A stretch of 10,855 bases of DNA from an uncultured Spirochaetaceae bacterium (GTDB taxonomy: Bacteria; Spirochaetota; Spirochaetia; Treponematales; Treponemataceae): NCBI GenBank assembly GCA_902773215.1, contig CACYDQ010000243.1:1-10855 (forward strand), in the 5' to 3' direction. Positions 2,960-10,855 of this stretch are shown here, piece after piece (position 1 is the stretch's first letter; each line of letters opens with the position of its first letter). The notes under the pieces are model-generated. The model was not told the origin of the DNA. It did not search any database and saw only the letters and a program-made list of their open reading frames with translations. The position numbers and the translations under genes were made by a program.

Positions 2960-3751
2960 TTACTTGCTCATCATCTCCACATATTTCTTGGTATACACGC
3001 TGTCCTTCTGCTTGGCGAACGAGACATTCGCAATCGTTATCTGCGTCTGCTCGTACTGCATTTTGCCATTGATTTTCTTGCCGCGAAGGTTGTCAACGAC
3101 GACCATCTTGTCGGGAACCGAGTGGTTCTCGAACAGCTTGTAGGAAGGAATGGCGGTCGTGCGCAAAAGCTGCCCCGAAAGGCTGTAGTCTTCTTTCATG
3201 CGGATGAGGCCGTCCTCCTCCGTCACCCACAGCTTTATCGTCGGGTAGTTGACGCTCTTGCTGGTCGCCGTCAGGGTCATCTTGATGCAGGCCAGCTTGC
3301 CGAGCTTGACCTTCTCGGCCTTGTCAATCTTGTAATTCTTGCTGTAGTGCTGGGGCGTGAAGTCCGCCGGGGTCGCGTTGGTCCCGCCGACGTTGTCCTT
3401 GGAGGACGTGAACACGAACTGGCGGTCAGAGGGGTCGTAGAACCAGATGTTGTTGTCGAACTGGACATAGCCCTTGCCCCTGTCCTTCTCGGGACCGGTG
3501 ATGAGGATGGTATAGGCATCCGCGTCATCGCGCCGGTACATGACGACCGACGTCGTGGACTTGCCCTGCCCGGGCTTCTCCTGGACAAGCGAGTAGTTCG
3601 CGGCGAAATCCGTCCCGTAGAACGAAGTTGAGTCATCGACCTTCTTAAGGAGGGCCTTCGCGTCAGATGCGGCCATATCCGCGGCAAAAGCCGATCCGGC
3701 AAGGACGGCGGCCGCAATCACGAATATCGATTTAATAACACCCTTTTTCAT
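2960..3751 (-). CDS. LolA-like outer-membrane lipoprotein-sorting protein (periplasmic carrier)
   Basis: A 263-residue protein with a clear signal peptide (MKK start, hydrophobic 8-21, cleavage after SAFA at residue 23/24). The mature part fits the LolA-like/outer-membrane lipoprotein-sorting family: an unclosed-barrel pattern with YVQFDNNIWFYDPSDRQFV (about 95-113), KLACIKMTLTATSK and the late KLWVTEEDGLIRMKEDY, plus a C-terminal YTKKYVEMMSK. Known relatives shuttle lipids or lipoproteins across the periplasm. GAGGAG lies six bases before the ATG (3763-3758), a strong ribosome binding site. It sits 36 bases after the second permease gene and one base before the barrel gene, in one apparent operon. 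The family call is good, the cargo is unknown, and the canonical LolA itself is smaller (about 180 mature residues). Confidence 0.82.
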   Translation of the reverse strand: MKKGVIKSIFVIAAAVLAGSAFAADMAASDAKALLKKVDDSTSFYGTDFAANYSLVQEKPGQGKSTTSVVMYRRDDADAYTILITGPEKDRGKGYVQFDNNIWFYDPSDRQFVFTSSKDNVGGTNATPADFTPQHYSKNYKIDKAEKVKLGKLACIKMTLTATSKSVNYPTIKLWVTEEDGLIRMKEDYSLSGQLLRTTAIPSYKLFENHSVPDKMVVVDNLRGKKINGKMQYEQTQITIANVSFAKQKDSVYTKKYVEMMSK

Positions 3752-3787
3752 TTTCTTCTCCTCTTGAAATGTGGTTGTTCAGTAGAA

Positions 3788-5104
3788 TCATGCCGTTGTC
3801 GCCAGTGCTCCGACCGGACTTATATGTACGGCATTTCGAATAGTAAACAACGTTGTGGAAATCGTAGTTACAATCACAATCAAAAAGAGAAGGATAGATT
3901 TCACTATATTTATGGAAGGAACCAGATGGCTCTTGGTCAGGAAAATCTCAAAGGCCGAAACGAACGACAAGTTCATGCAGGACAGGCCCCAGGTTCCCAA
4001 AAGGGCGAGGACAAGCCCGAAGAGGAAGCCCAGGACGAGCAGGTAGAAGGACTCCGTCATGAAAACCATGCGGACGCCCAGGTGCTTCATGCCGAGGGCG
4101 CGGAAAGTTCCTATCTCGGTCGTACGCTTGATGACTATGATGCGGTAGGTGCTGCCCATTCCCACGCCGATTATCACGAGGAGGATGAGGATTATCAGGT
4201 CGACGACGGCCTTGAGCGCGTCTATGATAAACTGCAGGTCCTTTATGTTGGAGTCAAGGGGAATCAGGCCGTAAAGTTCCCCCGCAGACGCATCCCAGTC
4301 GTGGATTGCGTCCCGGAAGTCGTCCTTGTCGTCCGTCAGAGGAAACATGTTGTAGACAGCCTCAAGCTTCTTCTGCAAGCCCACTATATCCTTCTTGCCA
4401 AAATCCCTGTCCGGGAAATACGCGCTTATGCGGTTCGCGTAGTCCTCGCCCCTGTCAATCAGTTTTTCCAGGGCCTTCAGGTCCGCATATACCGTGTAGG
4501 TGCCGAAGACGCTCGAATCACAGAAGATTCCCTCGATAATGACGGTCCCCGTGTTGGTGTAGCCGTCGTCGGTGGTCGTCTGTATGGTCAGCGAGTCCCC
4601 GGCCTTCGCGCTCAGTTTATCGGCAAGAAACTCAGAAATCAGTATCCCGTTCCTGCCGTCAAGCTCCTCTATGCCCCCGGACGTGATGTTCAGTCCGGAC
4701 AGCAGGTTCCGCTCCGCCTTGAAGTCCACGCCGCGGAACTGCCAGAGCCGGGTCTCCACCCCCTCGAAAATCAGGGTGGAGCTGGTCGCGTCGCAGTCTA
4801 TCCTCTTGTAGAACTCCACGTTCTTGTCGATGAAGGAACCGAGCATCTCGATTTTGCCGTCAATGTCCGGGATGCTGTTCGTGCTGTTGCGGCCACCCCG
4901 GAAGACCAAATCCCCGCCGTAATAGATGAGGGATTTGTCCCGGATGGACTTGAGCATACCGTCCGTGGAGAAGACGACCATCAGCATAATCGCGCATCCG
5001 ACGGTACAGACCGTGAAGAGCGACACGTACTGCTTCTTGTTGTACAGAAGGGTCTTGAGAGCGAGCTTGCTGTAGAAGCCCAGGGCCTGCAGGATTCTTT
5101 TCAT
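3788..5104 (-). CDS. ABC transporter permease, FtsX/MacB/LolCE type (second of a pair)
   Basis: A 438-residue inner-membrane protein with the four-helix FtsX layout: helix 1 at about 27-46, a large periplasmic domain (47-295), then helices at about 296-318, 350-375 and 400-423. The cytoplasmic coupling segment KRTTEIGTFRALGMKHLGV (326-344) matches the family signature that contacts the ATPase. The C-terminal SPVGALATTA lacks the final Arg of the usual PxxAxR tail. I chose the ATG at 5104 because it overlaps the previous stop as ATGA and has AGGGGG five bases upstream; the longer frame from 5167 only translates the end of the preceding gene. Relatives (LolC/LolE, MacB) use ATP hydrolysis mechanically to release lipoproteins or other substrates. 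The LolA-like gene downstream supports a Lol-like role, as inference. Confidence 0.88.
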   Translation of the reverse strand: MKRILQALGFYSKLALKTLLYNKKQYVSLFTVCTVGCAIMLMVVFSTDGMLKSIRDKSLIYYGGDLVFRGGRNSTNSIPDIDGKIEMLGSFIDKNVEFYKRIDCDATSSTLIFEGVETRLWQFRGVDFKAERNLLSGLNITSGGIEELDGRNGILISEFLADKLSAKAGDSLTIQTTTDDGYTNTGTVIIEGIFCDSSVFGTYTVYADLKALEKLIDRGEDYANRISAYFPDRDFGKKDIVGLQKKLEAVYNMFPLTDDKDDFRDAIHDWDASAGELYGLIPLDSNIKDLQFIIDALKAVVDLIILILLVIIGVGMGSTYRIIVIKRTTEIGTFRALGMKHLGVRMVFMTESFYLLVLGFLFGLVLALLGTWGLSCMNLSFVSAFEIFLTKSHLVPSINIVKSILLFLIVIVTTISTTLFTIRNAVHISPVGALATTA

Positions 5105-6555
5105 ATCTGCCCCCTCATGGCGACGATGGGATTTGCCTGCATGGCGATGCGGACGGGGAAGTACCATCCTATCAGGGTCAGGGCCGCCGCCACCCCCATG
5201 CAGAGGGATATGTTGGACGGAAGGAGGACGCAGCGGAGCGAGTTGCCGCCGAAGAGCTGTACCAGCAGCGAGTTGTGGAGCTCTATTCCTGCCGCGTTGA
5301 CGAGGAAGCAGAAGCCCGCCCCCAGAAGGCAGCCGAGGATTCCCGCCGTTATCGTCAGCAGGGCGGTCTCCCAGAAGAACTGGAGCTTGACGAAGCCCCG
5401 TTTTGCCCCGATTGCCCGGAGCGTCCCCGTCTCCGTCATCCGGCTCAGGGACGATATCATCAGGGTATTGGCGACGACGATGAATCCCGTCAGCAATATA
5501 AGGATAATCCCGACGTTCATCACGAGGCGCAGGAAGAAGACCATCGCGACGTTGCCTCCCGCGGCGGACCTCCAGTTGGTCGCCTGCACGGGCCAGTCCC
5601 GCTGGTCAAAGATTTGGTTGAGCCTGCGGATGACCGCCCCTGCCCGGGACGAATTCTTGAGCTTGATGACGAGGTAAGACCATACCAGGCTCTCGCCCCT
5701 GGGGCTGTCCCCGGAGTCCGGCGCATCCTTGCCGAAGTCCTGCTCCTCTACCTCAATGCCGACCGTATCCCCGGCATCCGCGAAAAGGTCCTCAATGGAG
5801 TCAAAGCCCCCGTTTATCAAGTCCATTGCGTCAGGGTCTATGTCCTCGTCCGCCGTGATGTTGCTGAGATCCAGAAGGTCACGCAGCACGTCCGGTGAGA
5901 TGAGGGCTATCTTGTTCATCGTCGAGTTCTCCACGCCGTACTCATAGATTCCCGTCAGCGTGACAAGACGGACGTTTATCGTCGCCCCGTTTGACGTAAG
6001 CACCTGGAACTTCTCGCCTATCTTGGGATCCTCGGTCAGGTCGAGCGCGTCCTTGAGGGACTCCACCGCCCCCCGGCTCAGCATGAGGCCTGACTGCCCC
6101 TTGTCGTAGGGACCGCCCTCGGTGACATGGATTCCGCTCATGCAGGGAACATAGTCCGCCGCCTCCACGCCGAAGAAATTCAGCCAGGCCCTGCTGTGGT
6201 CACCGCCTTTTATTGCCGCATAACCCGACACCTGGGGCAGGACAGCATCGATTTCTTCCATAGAGGAGACGTACTCCGACACCTCCTGGAAGGGAATGAG
6301 GGAAGGAATGACAGAGAACTCCCCCAGGATGGGCGTGTCGTCGCCGAAGAGACTCAGGCTCATGTTGGAGCGGGGTCTGACGACGATGTCCCCCGTAAAG
6401 CTGTTTATGAAGGTGCGCTCCAGACCGGAATCCGTACCATCAAACACTGCGTTGGACAAGCAGAGAACCGAGATGGAGAAAGCGATGAAGAGGATTATTA
6501 CCACGGAACTTTTGCGCGAAACTACGTTGCGCAAAGCGAAACGGAAAGCGAACAT
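5101..6555 (-). CDS. ABC transporter permease, FtsX/MacB/LolCE type (first of a pair)
   Basis: A 484-residue inner-membrane protein. It begins with the typical short cytoplasmic FAFRFALRNVVSRKSS, followed by helix 1 (about 17-37). A long periplasmic domain (38-335) comes next, then helices at about 337-368, 395-420 and 447-466. The coupling helix SRMTETGTLRAIGAKRGFV (371-389) and the tail NPIVAMRGQI (PxxAxR) are diagnostic for the family. An unusual acidic stretch (about 235-285, rich in Asp/Glu) sits near the end of the periplasmic domain. The start ATG has no Shine-Dalgarno sequence and lies only seven bases after a likely -10 box. With the following permease it probably forms a heterodimer like LolC/LolE. 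The ATP-binding partner is not encoded within the window. Confidence 0.9.
   Translation of the reverse strand: MFAFRFALRNVVSRKSSVVIILFIAFSISVLCLSNAVFDGTDSGLERTFINSFTGDIVVRPRSNMSLSLFGDDTPILGEFSVIPSLIPFQEVSEYVSSMEEIDAVLPQVSGYAAIKGGDHSRAWLNFFGVEAADYVPCMSGIHVTEGGPYDKGQSGLMLSRGAVESLKDALDLTEDPKIGEKFQVLTSNGATINVRLVTLTGIYEYGVENSTMNKIALISPDVLRDLLDLSNITADEDIDPDAMDLINGGFDSIEDLFADAGDTVGIEVEEQDFGKDAPDSGDSPRGESLVWSYLVIKLKNSSRAGAVIRRLNQIFDQRDWPVQATNWRSAAGGNVAMVFFLRLVMNVGIILILLTGFIVVANTLMISSLSRMTETGTLRAIGAKRGFVKLQFFWETALLTITAGILGCLLGAGFCFLVNAAGIELHNSLLVQLFGGNSLRCVLLPSNISLCMGVAAALTLIGWYFPVRIAMQANPIVAMRGQI
5105..5116 (-). promoter_or_regulatory. Ribosome binding site fixing the second permease start
   Basis: GAGGGGG (5116-5110) lies five bases before the ATG at 5104 and inside the last codons of the first permease. 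Together with the ATGA stop/start overlap (5104-5101) it supports coupled translation of the two permeases in equal amounts. Confidence 0.7.
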
Positions 6556-6841: not shown

Positions 6842-7837
6842 ATGAGAGTTATGAAAAGCATTTTTCTTACATGCCTGCTCCTCGCCTGCCTCTCCGCATG
6901 CGGGGGCTTCGGGGCCGCCACAGGCTCCGCAGGCAGGGAGACGAGCCTCCGCCTGGTCAGCTGGAACGTGCAGACATTCTTCGATGCGGAGAGTGACGGC
7001 AGCGAGTACAAGGATTTCGTCTCGGACAAACGCTGGGGCGAAGCGGCCTACTGCGAGCGGCTCAGGCGGCTCTGCTCCTGCCTGTCCGTGCTGGACGCGG
7101 ACGTGCTCGTGCTGGTGGAAGTGGAGAACGAGGCAGTCCTCCGCGACATCAGCAACTACCTCTGCCCGGCCTGGCTGCCCGGCAAACGCTACCGGCACGC
7201 GGCCTTCTGCAAGGAGACGGGCAGCTCGCTCGGCTGCGCGGTCCTGTCCCGCTACCCCCTGGAAGGCCTGTCATGTTACGCCCTGGATGCCCGCGCCAGC
7301 TCCGCCACGGCATCCGTCCGCAAAAGCCCTTCCCTCCGCCCCCTGATGCAGGTTCGCGTCACGAAGAACGGGAAGAGGCTCTTCCTCCTGGTCAACCACT
7401 GGAAGAGCATGTCCGGCGGAGCCGGGGAGAGCGAGGTCTGGAGGAATGCGCAGGAGGCGGTACTTGCAGACCGCATGGCACTGCTGGCCGACAGCCCCGC
7501 CATCGCCTGCGGGGACTTCAACCGGGACGTGCAGGACTTTGCGGGCGGGGACGATGGCATCGTAGTCCTCCGTTCAGGGAAAGCAGGTATCGCCGTCAGG
7601 AGCCCCTGGTTCGCTACGGACGGAAACTTGGTCAGCCCGGGCAGCTACTATTATAAGGAAGAATGGTCGAGGATAGACGGCTTCCTCTGCGCGGGCAGGC
7701 TGGAGCTGGAGGACTTCAGGTCCGAGACCGGAGGCCCCTGGTGCCAGGAGGACACGAACATCCCGAAGAAATACAAGGTCTGGAACGGCCAGGGCTACTC
7801 CGACCACCTCCCGATATCCTGCACGGTGCTATTTTAA
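6842..7837 (+). CDS. Lipoprotein of the endonuclease/exonuclease/phosphatase (EEP) family
   Basis: A 331-residue protein with a lipoprotein signal (hydrophobic 6-16, lipobox LSAC, lipidated Cys20) and an EEP (DNase I/exonuclease III-like) fold. The motifs are in order: SWNVQTFFD (40-48, metal/phosphate-site Asn42), LVEVEN (91-96, metal-binding Glu93), LVNHWKS (183-189, catalytic His186), GDFNRD (224-229, Asp225 and Asn227) and YSDHLPI (319-325, Asp321/His322). All catalytic positions are therefore present. The family includes nucleases, phosphodiesterases and lipid phosphatases; the substrate cannot be told from sequence. Acting at the cell surface or periplasm, it could degrade extracellular nucleic acid, as inference. 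The alternative start is the ATG at 6851; an in-frame TGA at 6800 excludes longer forms. The protein is Cys-rich outside the signal peptide. It is divergent from the tRNA gene. Confidence 0.87.
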   Translation: MRVMKSIFLTCLLLACLSACGGFGAATGSAGRETSLRLVSWNVQTFFDAESDGSEYKDFVSDKRWGEAAYCERLRRLCSCLSVLDADVLVLVEVENEAVLRDISNYLCPAWLPGKRYRHAAFCKETGSSLGCAVLSRYPLEGLSCYALDARASSATASVRKSPSLRPLMQVRVTKNGKRLFLLVNHWKSMSGGAGESEVWRNAQEAVLADRMALLADSPAIACGDFNRDVQDFAGGDDGIVVLRSGKAGIAVRSPWFATDGNLVSPGSYYYKEEWSRIDGFLCAGRLELEDFRSETGGPWCQEDTNIPKKYKVWNGQGYSDHLPISCTVLF

Positions 7838-7843
7838 AGGCTG

Positions 7844-7882
7844 CGCCTCCCCCTTGACATTTTTCAGGGGAGGCGGTATAAC
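7844..7882 (+). promoter_or_regulatory. Sigma-70 promoter embedded in an inverted repeat, upstream of the hairpin RNA/glnN
   Basis: A perfect -35 TTGACA (7854-7859), a 17-base spacer and TATAAC (7877-7882, 5/6) predict transcription from about 7889. A perfect 9-bp inverted repeat, CGCCTCCCC (7844-7852) and GGGGAGGCG (7867-7875), flanks the -35 box: the box lies in the 14-base centre and the right arm fills the spacer. This arrangement resembles an operator, although as RNA it could also be the 3' hairpin of the preceding gene. It lacks a following T tract. Confidence 0.65.
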
Positions 7883-7888
7883 TGGGTC

Positions 7889-7953
7889 ATAGGGCAAAGG
7901 TGTCTTAGAAAATAGTCTGCGGGAGCGGAGTATCTTCTAAGACACCTTTTTTT
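7889..7953 (+). ncRNA. Candidate small hairpin RNA or leader ending at an intrinsic terminator
   Basis: The predicted start (about 7889) and the T tract (7947-7953) define a transcript of about 65 bases that is almost entirely one hairpin. I know no named RNA family that fits. It may be a stand-alone small RNA, or the attenuated leader of glnN, whose start codon is about 110 bases beyond the terminator. No ORF of useful length is seen in it. Confidence 0.4.
7896..7953 (+). terminator. Intrinsic terminator: 54-base near-perfect hairpin plus seven T
   Basis: The outer stem AAAGGTGTCTTAGAA (7896-7910) pairs perfectly with TTCTAAGACACCTTT (7935-7949). Inside it lie an A-C mismatch, three A-U pairs (ATA with TAT), a G-G mismatch, then TCTGC/GCGGA (one G-U) closed by the GNRA-type tetraloop GGGA (7921-7924). 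That gives 23 pairs over 25 positions. The T run 7947-7953 follows directly. It could terminate the EEP gene, but it lies downstream of a good promoter, so it must also act on transcripts heading to glnN. Confidence 0.85.
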
Positions 7954-7964
7954 ATCTCGGCAAA

Positions 7965-8027
7965 GGCGTCGCGATAGCTTCTGGCACTCACTGTGTCCGG
8001 GGGACTTGTCGCGGCCTTTTCTTTTTT
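7965..8027 (+). promoter_or_regulatory. Second T-tailed dyad in the glnN leader
   Basis: GGCgtCGCG (7965-7973) can pair with CGCGGCC (8010-8016) with a two-base bulge. A small GTCC/GGAC hairpin (7995-8005, loop GGG) lies within the loop. The pyrimidine tail TTTTCTTTTTT (8017-8027) follows. It could be a weak terminator or part of a leader switch ahead of glnN. The stem is weaker and the loop longer than in the first hairpin, so this is tentative. Confidence 0.3.
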
Positions 8028-8049
8028 AAATATGTGCGGACAGCGCACG

Positions 8050-8054
8050 AGGAG
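8050..8054 (+). promoter_or_regulatory. Ribosome binding site deciding the glnN start
   Basis: AGGAG lies seven bases before the ATG at 8062. It favours this start over the upstream GTG at 7993, whose extra 23 residues run through the T-rich leader and do not resemble the family. Confidence 0.8.
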
Positions 8055-8061
8055 ATATAAG

Positions 8062-10152
8062 ATGGAATCGATGGTTACGGAGCTTTTCGGAAGCATGGTC
8101 TTCAACGAGTCGGTGATGAAAGCCCGGCTCCCCAAGGAGACGTTCAAGCAGCTGATGAAGACGATCAAGGGCGGCGAGAAGCTGGACCCGACGGTCGCGA
8201 CGGTCGTCGCCAACGCGATGAAGGACTGGGCGATAGAGAAGGGGGCGACCCACTTTACCCACTGGTTCCAGCCGCTGACGGGAATCACCGCGGAGAAGCA
8301 CGACAGCTTCATCTCCCCGACCAAGGACGGCAACGTCATCATGGAATTCTCCGGCAAGGAGCTGGTGCAGGGTGAGCCCGACGCGTCCAGCTTCCCGAGC
8401 GGCGGCCTCCGCGCCACTTTTGAGGCCCGCGGCTACACGGCATGGGATCCGACCTCATTCGCCTTTATCAAGGACGGGACCCTCTGCATCCCGACGGCTT
8501 TCTGCTCCTACACTGGCGAGGCCCTGGACAAGAAGACCCCCCTCCTCCGCTCCATGGAGGCGATAAACAGGCAGGCTCTCCGCGTTCTCAAGCTCTTCGG
8601 CAACTCCGATGTCTCCAGCGTCAAGACGACGGTCGGCCCCGAGCAGGAATACTTCCTTGTGGACAAGTCCGTCTACGACAAGCGCGAGGATTTGATTTTC
8701 ACCGGCAGGACCCTCTTCGGCGCGAAGTCCCCCAAGGGGCAGGAGCTTGAGGACCACTACTTCGGCATGATAAAGCCCCGCGTCCAGGCCTTCATGAAAG
8801 ACCTGAACAAGGAACTGTGGAAGCTTGGCATCCTCGCCAAGACCGAGCACAACGAGGTTGCCCCCGCCCAGCACTAGCTCGCCCCTATTTTCTCCACGAC
8901 GAACATCGCGTGCGACCACAACCAGCTGATGATGGAGCTGATGCGCAAGACCGCGAGCAAGCATGGCATGGTCTGCCTGCTCCACGAGAAGCCCTTTGAC
9001 GGCGTGAACGGCAGCGGCAAGCACAACAACTGGTCCATTTCCACCGACACCGGCAAGAACCTGCTTGATCCGGGTGAGACCCCCAGCCAGAACGCCCAGT
9101 TCCTCCTCTTCCTCGCCGCAATCATCAAGGCGGTGGACGAGTATCAGGATTTGCTCCGCATTTCTGTCGCGTCCGCCGGAAACGACCACAGGCTCGGCGC
9201 GAACGAGGCACCGCCAGCCATCATCTCGATTTTCCTTGGCGACGAGCTGAGCGAGATCCTGGACTGCCTGGAGAGCGGCAAACCCTACGGCAAGCACGCC
9301 AAGGAGAAGATGGAAATCGGCGTGAGCGTCCTGCCCGACTTCAACAAGGATGCGACCGACCGCAACAGAACCAGCCCCTTCGCCTTTACCGGCAACAAGT
9401 TTGAGTTCCGTATGCTGGGAAGCCAGGATTCCATCGCCTGTGCCAACATCATGATAAACACCGCTGTGTCCCAGGTGCTCGGTGAGTTCGCCGACCAGCT
9501 GGAGAAGTCCTCTGACTTCCAGAAGGACTTGCAGGCCCTCATCCTCAAGACCATCCGGGAGCACAAGCGGATTATCTTCAACGGAAACGGCTACGATGAC
9601 TCCTGGGTGCAGGAAGCCGAGAAGCGCGGGCTCTACAATCTCCGTTCCACGCCCGACGCGCTCGACCACCTGCTGGACGAGAAGAACCTCAAGGCGTTCA
9701 AGGCGCAGAAGATTTTCAGCGAGAGCGAAATCCGCTCACGCTATGAGATTCAGAACGAGAACTACAGCAAGATTATCCATATAGAGGCCATGACGATGAT
9801 CGACATGACCCGCAAGCAGATTCTGCCCGCCGCCGCGACATTCGCCAGGAGCCTGTCCGAGACGGTTTCCGCGGTGAAGGCCGTCTGCACGGACTGCGAC
9901 ACGAGCTACGAAGGCGGCACGCTCAAGACTGTCTCCGAGCTGACCAAGGCAATCTACGAGGCGGTCGGCAAGCTGGAGTCTGATTTGGACGGAATCCCGC
10001 TCGACATCGGAAAGCAGGGACACTTCTTCCACGATGTCGTCCTTGCGGACATGGAGGGCCTGCGTGCTTCCGTGGACGCGCTTGAGGCCATCAGCCCCAA
10101 GGACGTATGGCCGCTGCCCAGCTACGGCGACCTGCTGTTCAGCGTAAGATAG
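8062..10152 (+). pseudogene. glnN: Type III glutamine synthetase, frame interrupted by one in-frame TAG
   Basis: Would make glutamine from glutamate, ammonia and ATP. Read through the TAG, the frame codes for 696 residues, normal for GSIII (about 700). Signatures are [12 protein letters not shown] (63-74), [14 protein letters not shown] (111-124), VGPEQEYF (191-198, metal ligands Glu194/Glu196), HNEVAPAQH (263-271, Glu265), NGSGKHNNWS (316-325, His321) and NRTSPFAFTGNKFEFR (435-450, Glu448, Arg450). The equivalences to type I ligands come from family knowledge. Codon 272 (8875-8877) is TAG where the family has Glu of NEVAPAQHE; a single GAG to TAG change explains it. The rest of the frame to the terminal TAG (10150-10152) is open and conserved, so the lesion is recent, an error, or read through. 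As written, translation would give 271 residues lacking most of the active site. A downstream ATG (8929) has no ribosome binding site. Confidence 0.92.
8875..8877 (+). other. In-frame amber codon within glnN
   Basis: The codon context is CAC TAG CTC. It replaces the Glu that follows AQH and precedes LAPIF in type III glutamine synthetases. The same frame continues without another stop for 424 codons. TAG also ends this gene and the neighbouring DUF2400 gene, which argues against a general reassignment of TAG. Confidence 0.9.
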
Positions 10153-10161
10153 AGCCAGTCG

Positions 10162-10855
10162 CTAGGGGCGGGAGCCGTCCACCCCCAGGCCGAAGAGGGC
10201 ATAGTCGCCCCGGGCCGGGTCGCCGGGGAAGGCCCCGCCCATCGTCGTAGTAAGCTCCACGGCGCACTTGAGCGTGGCCGCCCTCACCTTCCCGCGTGGG
10301 GAGGGGGCGAGCAGGCCTAGGCGTGTCGCCTCCTGCATGACGTGGGTGTCCAGCGGCACGAGCAGGTCGGCCTTATCGTACCATGACGACCAGAGGCCCA
10401 GGTCCACGGGAGAGGAATCCCGCACCATCCAGCGCAGGAACATGTTCAGCTTCTTGAAAGCGCAAGTCGCAGACCGGGGAATGAGGGTGCAGCTGTCGGG
10501 GAAGCAGGAGGCGACGACCTGGCAGAGATGCAGCCTACGGCGGGAACTGCCGTCCCCGCATGAAAGGCCGTCCGCCCTTCCCTCCGCATCCCGGTACCTG
10601 TCCCGGAAGTAACCGCCGAGCGTCTGACCCCGCAGTATATCCCGCAAAGTAGAAAACATAGTCCGCATTGCCCCATAGCTGAAGGTCCGGTAAAAAGAAG
10701 CGGGCGAGTCGGGGAAGTGCCGCTCCCAGCCCCCCTCCCCTACCCAGTCAGCGGGCTTCGGCCCCGCCAGTTCCAGAATCAGCTCCACATGAGAAAGTAT
10801 CTGATCCCGCCTGCCGAACGCGAGGGCAGCGGCGACAAAGGCGACAAGCTCCTGA
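10162..10855 (-). CDS. TIGR02757/DUF2400 family protein, 5' end outside the window
   Basis: The C-terminal 230 residues are visible and the frame runs off the window edge; the GTG at 10788 is internal, because the codons before it read QELVAFVAAALAFGRRDQIL, which matches the conserved EIxxFIAAxLAYGR segment of the family. Other family landmarks are AFKKLNMFLRWMVR, the following VDLGLW, the LLVPLDTHV motif and the end GDYALFGLGV. The family is widespread and its biochemical function is unknown to me; it has been linked to HhH-type DNA-repair folds, which I cannot verify here. Residues about 78-100 of the visible part are Arg/Gly/Ser-rich. The gene converges on glnN with nine bases between the stops and no visible terminator. 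Confidence 0.85.
   Translation of the reverse strand, partial: QELVAFVAAALAFGRRDQILSHVELILELAGPKPADWVGEGGWERHFPDSPASFYRTFSYGAMRTMFSTLRDILRGQTLGGYFRDRYRDAEGRADGLSCGDGSSRRRLHLCQVVASCFPDSCTLIPRSATCAFKKLNMFLRWMVRDSSPVDLGLWSSWYDKADLLVPLDTHVMQEATRLGLLAPSPRGKVRAATLKCAVELTTTMGGAFPGDPARGDYALFGLGVDGSRP

Follow-up and report, generated by a model that had tools for sequence, protein, structure and literature searches.

The amber codon that interrupts the type III glutamine synthetase (GSIII) gene of an uncultured Spirochaetaceae bacterium is an isolated recent mutation or else an erroneous base, ordinary in kind, and the leader ahead of this gene is a candidate serial attenuator of the ANTAR type. The window (i.e., the whole stretch of DNA that was analysed, 10,855 bases) is an entire contig (C243) of a draft genome, labelled G000 (2.69 Mb, 523 contigs, completeness 72.11%), whose named close relatives are Treponema sp., derived in part from rumen and omasum samples.

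The interrupted glutamine synthetase gene

The GSIII frame runs from ATG 8062 to an in-frame TAG at 8875–8877 and is then open to a second TAG at 10150–10152, comprising 696 codons, and the rest of the frame contains no further stop or frameshift. The preliminary description had reported a single TAG at codon 272 of an otherwise intact 696-codon frame, which is confirmed by the frame and by the domains on both sides of the stop. The features of the gene are as follows.

8050..8054, plus strand: AGGAG resembling a ribosome-binding site, upstream of ATG 8062 (sequence)
8062..10152, plus strand: GSIII gene with one interruption of its frame (ORF and domain reading)
8062..8874, plus strand: N-terminal part, 271 aa, with GSIII_N (PF12437, 282.1 bits) and the beginning of the catalytic domain (PF00120, 24.3 bits)
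8875..8877, plus strand: in-frame TAG, codon 272, a Glu position in every readable relative (codon and protein comparison)
8878..10149, plus strand: C-terminal part, 424 aa, with the remaining catalytic domain (PF00120, 39.1 bits) and Gln-synt_C-ter (PF18318, 147.7 bits)
10150..10152, plus strand: ordinary stop codon of the gene, also TAG (sequence)

The domains that mark GSIII (GSIII_N, Gln-synt_C, and Gln-synt_C-ter) are present in this order, whereas the other mark of the family, an uninterrupted frame with the second Glu of the active-site motif, is missing due to the TAG at codon 272. Judged from its sequence, 8062–10152 is a broken gene of the GSIII family and not a working member. Compared to two GSIII proteins of known structure (PDB 3o6x and 7u6o, assigned to GSIII by sequence), the window gene encodes the three domains in identical order and its HNEVAPxQxE motif aligns residue by residue, with the difference that the codon for the last Glu of the motif is TAG in the window. 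In the alignment with the shorter synthetases of known structure, position 272 corresponds to the second Glu of HEVAPGQHE, such that solved enzymes of both types have the closing Glu of the motif in this column. In the Salmonella enzyme, E212 and E220 are given among the metal-binding residues in the available text of PMC5403932, and residue 272 would be the counterpart of E220.

The preliminary description had proposed to compare the codon in sister strains, and every readable relative compared has Glu. Codon 272 is GAG in 42 and GAA in 16 of 59 fetched loci and masked (NNN) in the last one (58/59 Glu). Nine of the 59 are repeat fetches of the same gene, leaving 50 distinct genomes, 49 of them readable, and position 272 is Glu in all 49 and TAG in none. 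The same residue was found in 119 of 119 full-length database relatives, many of which are near-identical to one another (these are from the best 120 listed; the 574-aa protein P0132, which also has Glu, was excluded for its length).

The earlier claim that the stop falls exactly on a metal ligand is consistent with the Glu column and the motif alignment, but the coincidence is less telling than was supposed. A single base change would turn 175 codons of this gene into a stop, and 86 of those codons occupy invariant columns (31 of 59 when only G to T routes to a stop are counted), so a random nonsense change would hit an invariant residue about half the time. The position of the stop at an invariant residue exceeds chance only weakly. 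Because about half of the codons that are one base from a stop are invariant here, a lone stop at an invariant residue in a draft genome is by itself no evidence of recoding.

Age and origin of the amber codon

The nearest genome compared (G068) shows 94% DNA identity in the GSIII gene, with an open frame and Glu at 272, and four database proteins of 696 aa with 98% identity likewise have Glu at this position. Residues 1–568 are the same in the window and G068 except for residue 29 and the stop (i.e., one residue differs before the stop and none in residues 273–568), and the twelve differences after the stop are all within residues 569–696, where G068 is changing equally fast (6 and 7 nonsynonymous changes). 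When changes were polarised with G174 as the outgroup (15 and 14 sites could not be placed), the part before the stop had 11 synonymous and 2 nonsynonymous changes on the window branch and 17 and 0 on the G068 branch, and the part after the stop had 17 and 7 on the window branch and 26 and 7 on the G068 branch. For codons 273–568, the neutral expectation on the window branch is 47.3 nonsynonymous changes; one change in these residues was polarised as nonsynonymous, even though the residue is identical in the window and G068. Based on these values, function was lost for less than about 6% of the window branch (3.0/47.3), or not at all. Because the C-terminal part up to residue 568 is as conserved as the N-terminal part, the whole enzyme was under purifying selection until very recently, and the stop is either a very recent mutation or an error in the sequence. 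Of the four 696-aa database proteins, P0122 shares with G068 all 14 positions at which it departs from the window and is therefore not independent of G068. The database protein P0121 (7 contigs) is intact and has the residue-29 state of the window.

The strong conservation of the N-terminal part, which differs from G068 by one residue, would also be consistent with an older pseudogene or with a short N-terminal protein retained for a function of its own. Such an origin is scarcely credible, given that the C-terminal part to residue 568 is equally conserved, the frame carries no second lesion, and a search with the N-terminal part gave no near-identical short protein in its top 120 matches (8000 scored). 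When the C-terminal part was used as the query, the only 100% match among the best 120 was a 406-aa protein on a contig of 10,855 bases, which is evidently the ORF of the window itself. The older pseudogene was thus rejected on the conservation after the stop and the single lesion, and the conserved short form was rejected because none is among the database matches listed.

An ordinary lone lesion with no special decoding, whether a nonsense allele or a base error, very probably accounts for the amber codon. With a chance slightly better than even, one nonsense mutation arose very recently in the assembled strain or population and struck one of several synthetase genes. A base error, that is, a wrong base in a fragmented and supposedly low-coverage draft with the gene intact in the living strain, is a serious candidate that we place somewhat short of an even chance. 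It is in line with the fragmentation and incompleteness of the draft, with a lone change at an invariant site that is followed by no relaxed selection downstream, and with the lack of a second truncated copy among the database matches listed. Against it stands a comparison of contig samples from G000 and G068 (60 contigs each, drawn by number, with contig C252 of G068 chosen deliberately and the G000 sample enlarged with 17–18 loci and the window), which share 37.8 kb at >85% identity (one 1.6-kb stretch counted twice). In one direction of the comparison 42 matches with 12 stops were retained, in the other 40 matches with 7 stops, and the stops other than that of GSIII were assigned by eye to match ends, the leader, or shadow frames. 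Thus, in the 42 kept matches (12,671 residues) the GSIII stop is, by eye, the sole interior stop in a true frame, which argues against a very poor draft, even if it leaves room for one wrong base. The near-identity of residues 1–568 to G068 also counts against a base error and, since the state of residue 29 is common to P0121, there is no sign of scattered errors. The base is somewhat more likely real than erroneous. Recent nonsense alleles and single-base errors are both ordinary in draft genomes, and they typically present one stop, intact relatives, and no decay behind the stop, as in the window; we found no feature that sets the stop of the window apart from them. The available text of PMC6785717 addresses indels in long-read assemblies and not single-base stops.

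Read-through of the TAG (by a suppressor tRNA, by pyrrolysine, or by leaky termination), which would yield a full-length and possibly regulated enzyme, is favoured by one point only, namely that the frame beyond the stop is as conserved as a translated gene, and the youth of the lesion explains this equally well. Several results make it highly improbable. The draft contains 33 tRNA matches, 32 of which were read by ARAGORN (the unread one is on C371), and the CUA anticodon, for which the preliminary description had suggested a search, is absent from these 32 of 33 matches (draft 72% complete). RF1-type gene pieces are present on C404 and C42, although they are cut by contig ends and score below the cut-off of the model; the C404 protein carries PAT and the C455 protein carries SPF, which we take to be marks of RF1 and RF2, respectively. 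TAG is a common normal stop that terminates 67 of 218 long ORFs sampled from G000, as well as the GSIII gene itself, and it is at position 272 in no readable relative. Neither the avoidance of TAG nor the absence of RF1 that is expected of a recoded amber gene was therefore observed. Of 98 genomes of the genus, none has PylS_Cterm above the cut-off, compared to 1 of 14 control genomes. Consequently, genome-wide reassignment of TAG, pyrrolysine, and a suppressor tRNA were rejected based on the tRNA, RF1, PylS, and stop-usage data. Literature searches on such an amber codon returned no matching paper. With regard to the preliminary description, its view that genome-wide reassignment is unlikely is borne out by stop usage and the RF1-type pieces, and of the options that it had named, recent nonsense mutation and error are both kept and suppression has become improbable.

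If the codon is a nonsense change, RF1 would terminate translation at codon 272 and the product would be a 271-residue piece that lacks the remaining active site, such that no enzyme would be made from this copy. A restart at ATG 8929 leading to a working half enzyme was rejected, given that no ribosome site is visible by eye and the active site would be split. GSIII_N is present in 188 of 196 genus genomes, and because GSIII is so widely kept, a genuine and tolerated loss of the gene would be more surprising than the loss of a dispensable one, which counts against a real nonsense change. The preliminary description had also suggested a search for a second glutamine synthetase, and two genes came to light. 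Contig C176 encodes an intact type I-like synthetase (394 aa) that carries the two Pfam domains of type I enzymes, which scores 353.2 bits against the NCBIfam type I GlnA model (below the cut-off of 429.15) and is predicted from its sequence to make glutamine. A second GSIII gene is located on C254 (L064 1498–1725; G000:C254:5827–6051) behind a gene that we read as purF, and contains about the first 80 residues before the contig ends; the draft (72% complete) yielded no further Gln-synt_C-ter domain. With the nonsense change in place, the cell would rely on the type I-like synthetase, and perhaps also on the second GSIII, and the knock-out may be bearable through cover by these other synthetases.

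A leader with serial terminators and hexaloop hairpins

The GSIII gene and its upstream region are located apart from the flanking sequence in G068. The block 7848–10152 matches G068 contig C252 at 94%, whereas the flank 2660–7837 matches a different G068 contig (C112) at 88%, with sharp match borders at 7837/7848 and 10152. On C112, a serine-protease-like gene (by ORF reading) is found in place of GSIII, and the genes that adjoin GSIII in G068 are on other contigs in G000. Synonymous distances to G068 are 0.22–0.29 for GSIII versus 0.35–0.97 for the flanking genes. Promoter, leader, and gene have thus moved as a unit, and 7848–10152 represents a relocated or transferred gene block. Elsewhere in the window, the minus strand encodes a 530-aa protein (1366–2958) with three DxDxGxGxYSDT repeats near its start (by eye) and no Pfam or NCBIfam match, adjoining LolA-like and FtsX/LolCE-type genes (2960–6555), and a DUF2400/TIGR02757 gene (10162–10854, minus strand) that the contig end truncates. 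In G128 and G159, the DUF2400/TIGR02757 gene has other neighbours, with no GSIII within the flanks fetched.

The region between the upstream border of the block and the GSIII gene contains the following elements.

7854..7882, plus strand: promoter-like TTGACA (7854–7859) and TATAAC (7877–7882), spacer 17 (sequence)
7890..7907, plus strand: first ANTAR-type hairpin, hexaloop AAAGGT with A1 and G4 (hairpin search, covariation)
7896..7949, plus strand: first terminator-like hairpin with a T tract behind it, its 5' arm common to the first hexaloop hairpin (terminator search, covariation)
7958..7971, plus strand: second ANTAR-type hairpin, hexaloop AAAGGC with A1 and G4 (hairpin search, covariation)
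7963..8030, plus strand: second terminator-like hairpin and T tract, its 5' arm common to the second hexaloop hairpin (terminator search, covariation)

The TATAAC pair was not listed by a promoter scan that required a final T. Among 50 distinct GSIII leaders (window included), at least two terminator-like hairpins lie within 400 nt in 44, one in 4, and none in 2. A -35/-10-like pattern followed by a hexaloop hairpin is present in 44 of the 50, and in 42 of these 44 the first hexaloop hairpin starts 8–12 nt behind the -10 box. At least one hexaloop hairpin was found in 47 of 50 leaders (none in L077, L080, and L089), compared to 0.15 per leader in a shuffle control, which required A at loop position 2 when the leader tally did not (the tally is 47/50 either way).

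Twenty-seven of the 50 leaders, selected for short spacing, were aligned. In this alignment, 19 of 24 terminator pairs are changed on both sides, the first loop has A1 and G4 in 27/27 leaders each, and the second loop has A1 in 26/27 and G4 in 27/27. In the hexaloop stems, 98.1% of cells contain standard pairs, a figure that falls to 59.3% or less when the stems are slid, and 15 cells have changes on both sides. Columns 21–24 and 114–117 pair with two alternative partners, both supported by covariation. Each hexaloop hairpin is thereby predicted to overlap and exclude a terminator, as expected of an ANTAR leader. A covariance model of the 27 leaders (R1) scored 80.1 bits against window 7888–8031, the window itself being among the 27 leaders from which R1 was built. 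In Rfam searches, tRNA alone reached the gathering level in the window, and the leader gave three weak matches, all under the gathering scores.

Known ANTAR targets have hexaloops with A1 and G4 and one hairpin that overlaps a terminator, according to the available text of PMC3369931 and PMC3369936. The leaders described there (nasF, amiE, and the eutP/eutG leaders of Enterococcus faecalis) carry the A1/G4 hexaloop on the 5' arm of the terminator, as here, and share with the window the nitrogen genes downstream and an ANTAR gene in the genome (PMC3369931, PMC3369936). The window leader differs from them, as far as these texts describe them, in having two complete serial terminators, each with a hexaloop hairpin of its own. 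It also differs in the linker. In E. faecalis eut, 5–12 nt separate the hairpins and lengthening to 14 nt harmed induction (PMC3369931, available text), whereas the distance is 50 nt in the window (7908–7957) and 32–62 nt (median 43) in the 27 leaders; the search in the same paper allowed a variable linker. The two-step layout does not occur in the available text of either ANTAR paper, and the main text of PMC3369931, insofar as available, mentions no Treponema or spirochaete, although its supplementary tables may list such hits. Literature searches found no report of an ANTAR-type double leader in Treponema.

A candidate nitrogen regulon in Treponema

Model R1 was used to search 15 genomes, with E-values that are rough. 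Matches at E up to 0.1 were found in all 15, and in 11 of them one or more of the matches are followed by a nitrogen gene. Thirty of the matches were fetched and 14 non-GSIII elements examined, which precede seven ammonium transporter (amt) genes, three genes for the glutamate synthase large subunit (gltB), two gltD-like genes, one asparagine synthase gene, and dapF (gltB, amt, and dapF identities were confirmed by Pfam). Two terminators are present in 9 of these 14 elements (amt 6/7, gltB 3/3), and AAnG hexaloop hairpins in 12. Several results count against the ANTAR reading: 6 of the 50 GSIII leaders have fewer than two terminators by the rule used, five of the 14 non-GSIII elements have one terminator (including all those before gltD, asparagine synthase, and dapF), L344 and L348 have no AAnG hexaloop hairpin of at least 4 pairs, and 4 of the 15 genomes (G119, G132, G108, and G042) show weak R1 matches alone, with no nitrogen gene behind them. 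In G015, a glutamine-amidotransferase gene and an Amt-PII fusion gene also have elements ahead of them, the latter at the place of L341; the fusion gene (L353 16927–18600, G015:C11) encodes an ammonium transporter and a PII domain in one protein behind its leader element.

The R1 matches in G000 are located before GSIII, before the ammonium transporter gene on C151, and at one place on C261. The element on C151 (L345; G000:C151:4326–4463) is a double element before the genome's own ammonium transporter gene, with stems that differ from those of the window and AAAGGC in both loops, and the third match (G000:C261:8991–9078) has an E-value of 5.3e-5. Across 350,650 bases of contigs and loci from G000, R1 matched the window leader alone at E up to 1, and 491,687 bases of G068 gave the GSIII leader and one weak match (E 0.61). 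No match was found at the second GSIII gene on C254 (E up to 1).

The same genome encodes an ANTAR protein (PF03861, 56.7 bits), and its gene lies 23 nt behind the type I-like synthetase gene.

L001 896..1474 (G000:C176), minus strand: ANTAR regulator, 192 aa
L001 1498..2682 (G000:C176), minus strand: type I-like glutamine synthetase, 394 aa

The synthetase and ANTAR genes likely form an operon, and the ANTAR protein is likely the partner of the leader element. In G174, a relative of the ANTAR protein (67% identity in the first 73 residues) is encoded behind glnA, which is divergent from the GSIII gene and its leader. A relaxed ANTAR motif scan gave three matches, two of which are ANTAR proteins of Clostridia. 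In the proposed mechanism, the transcript would end at the first or second terminator when there is no signal, and an active ANTAR protein would hold the small hairpins such that the polymerase passes both terminators; we infer the ANTAR binding, the signal, and this order of events.

On balance, the leader probably represents a serial double ANTAR-type attenuator that belongs to a spirochaete ANTAR nitrogen regulon with a two-step layout, and it is the part of the window that deserves further study. If this reading is correct, the layout would be a variant of the known one, in which the hexaloop hairpins are set apart by a long linker and each opposes a separate terminator, and gut Treponema could switch their nitrogen genes together by antitermination.
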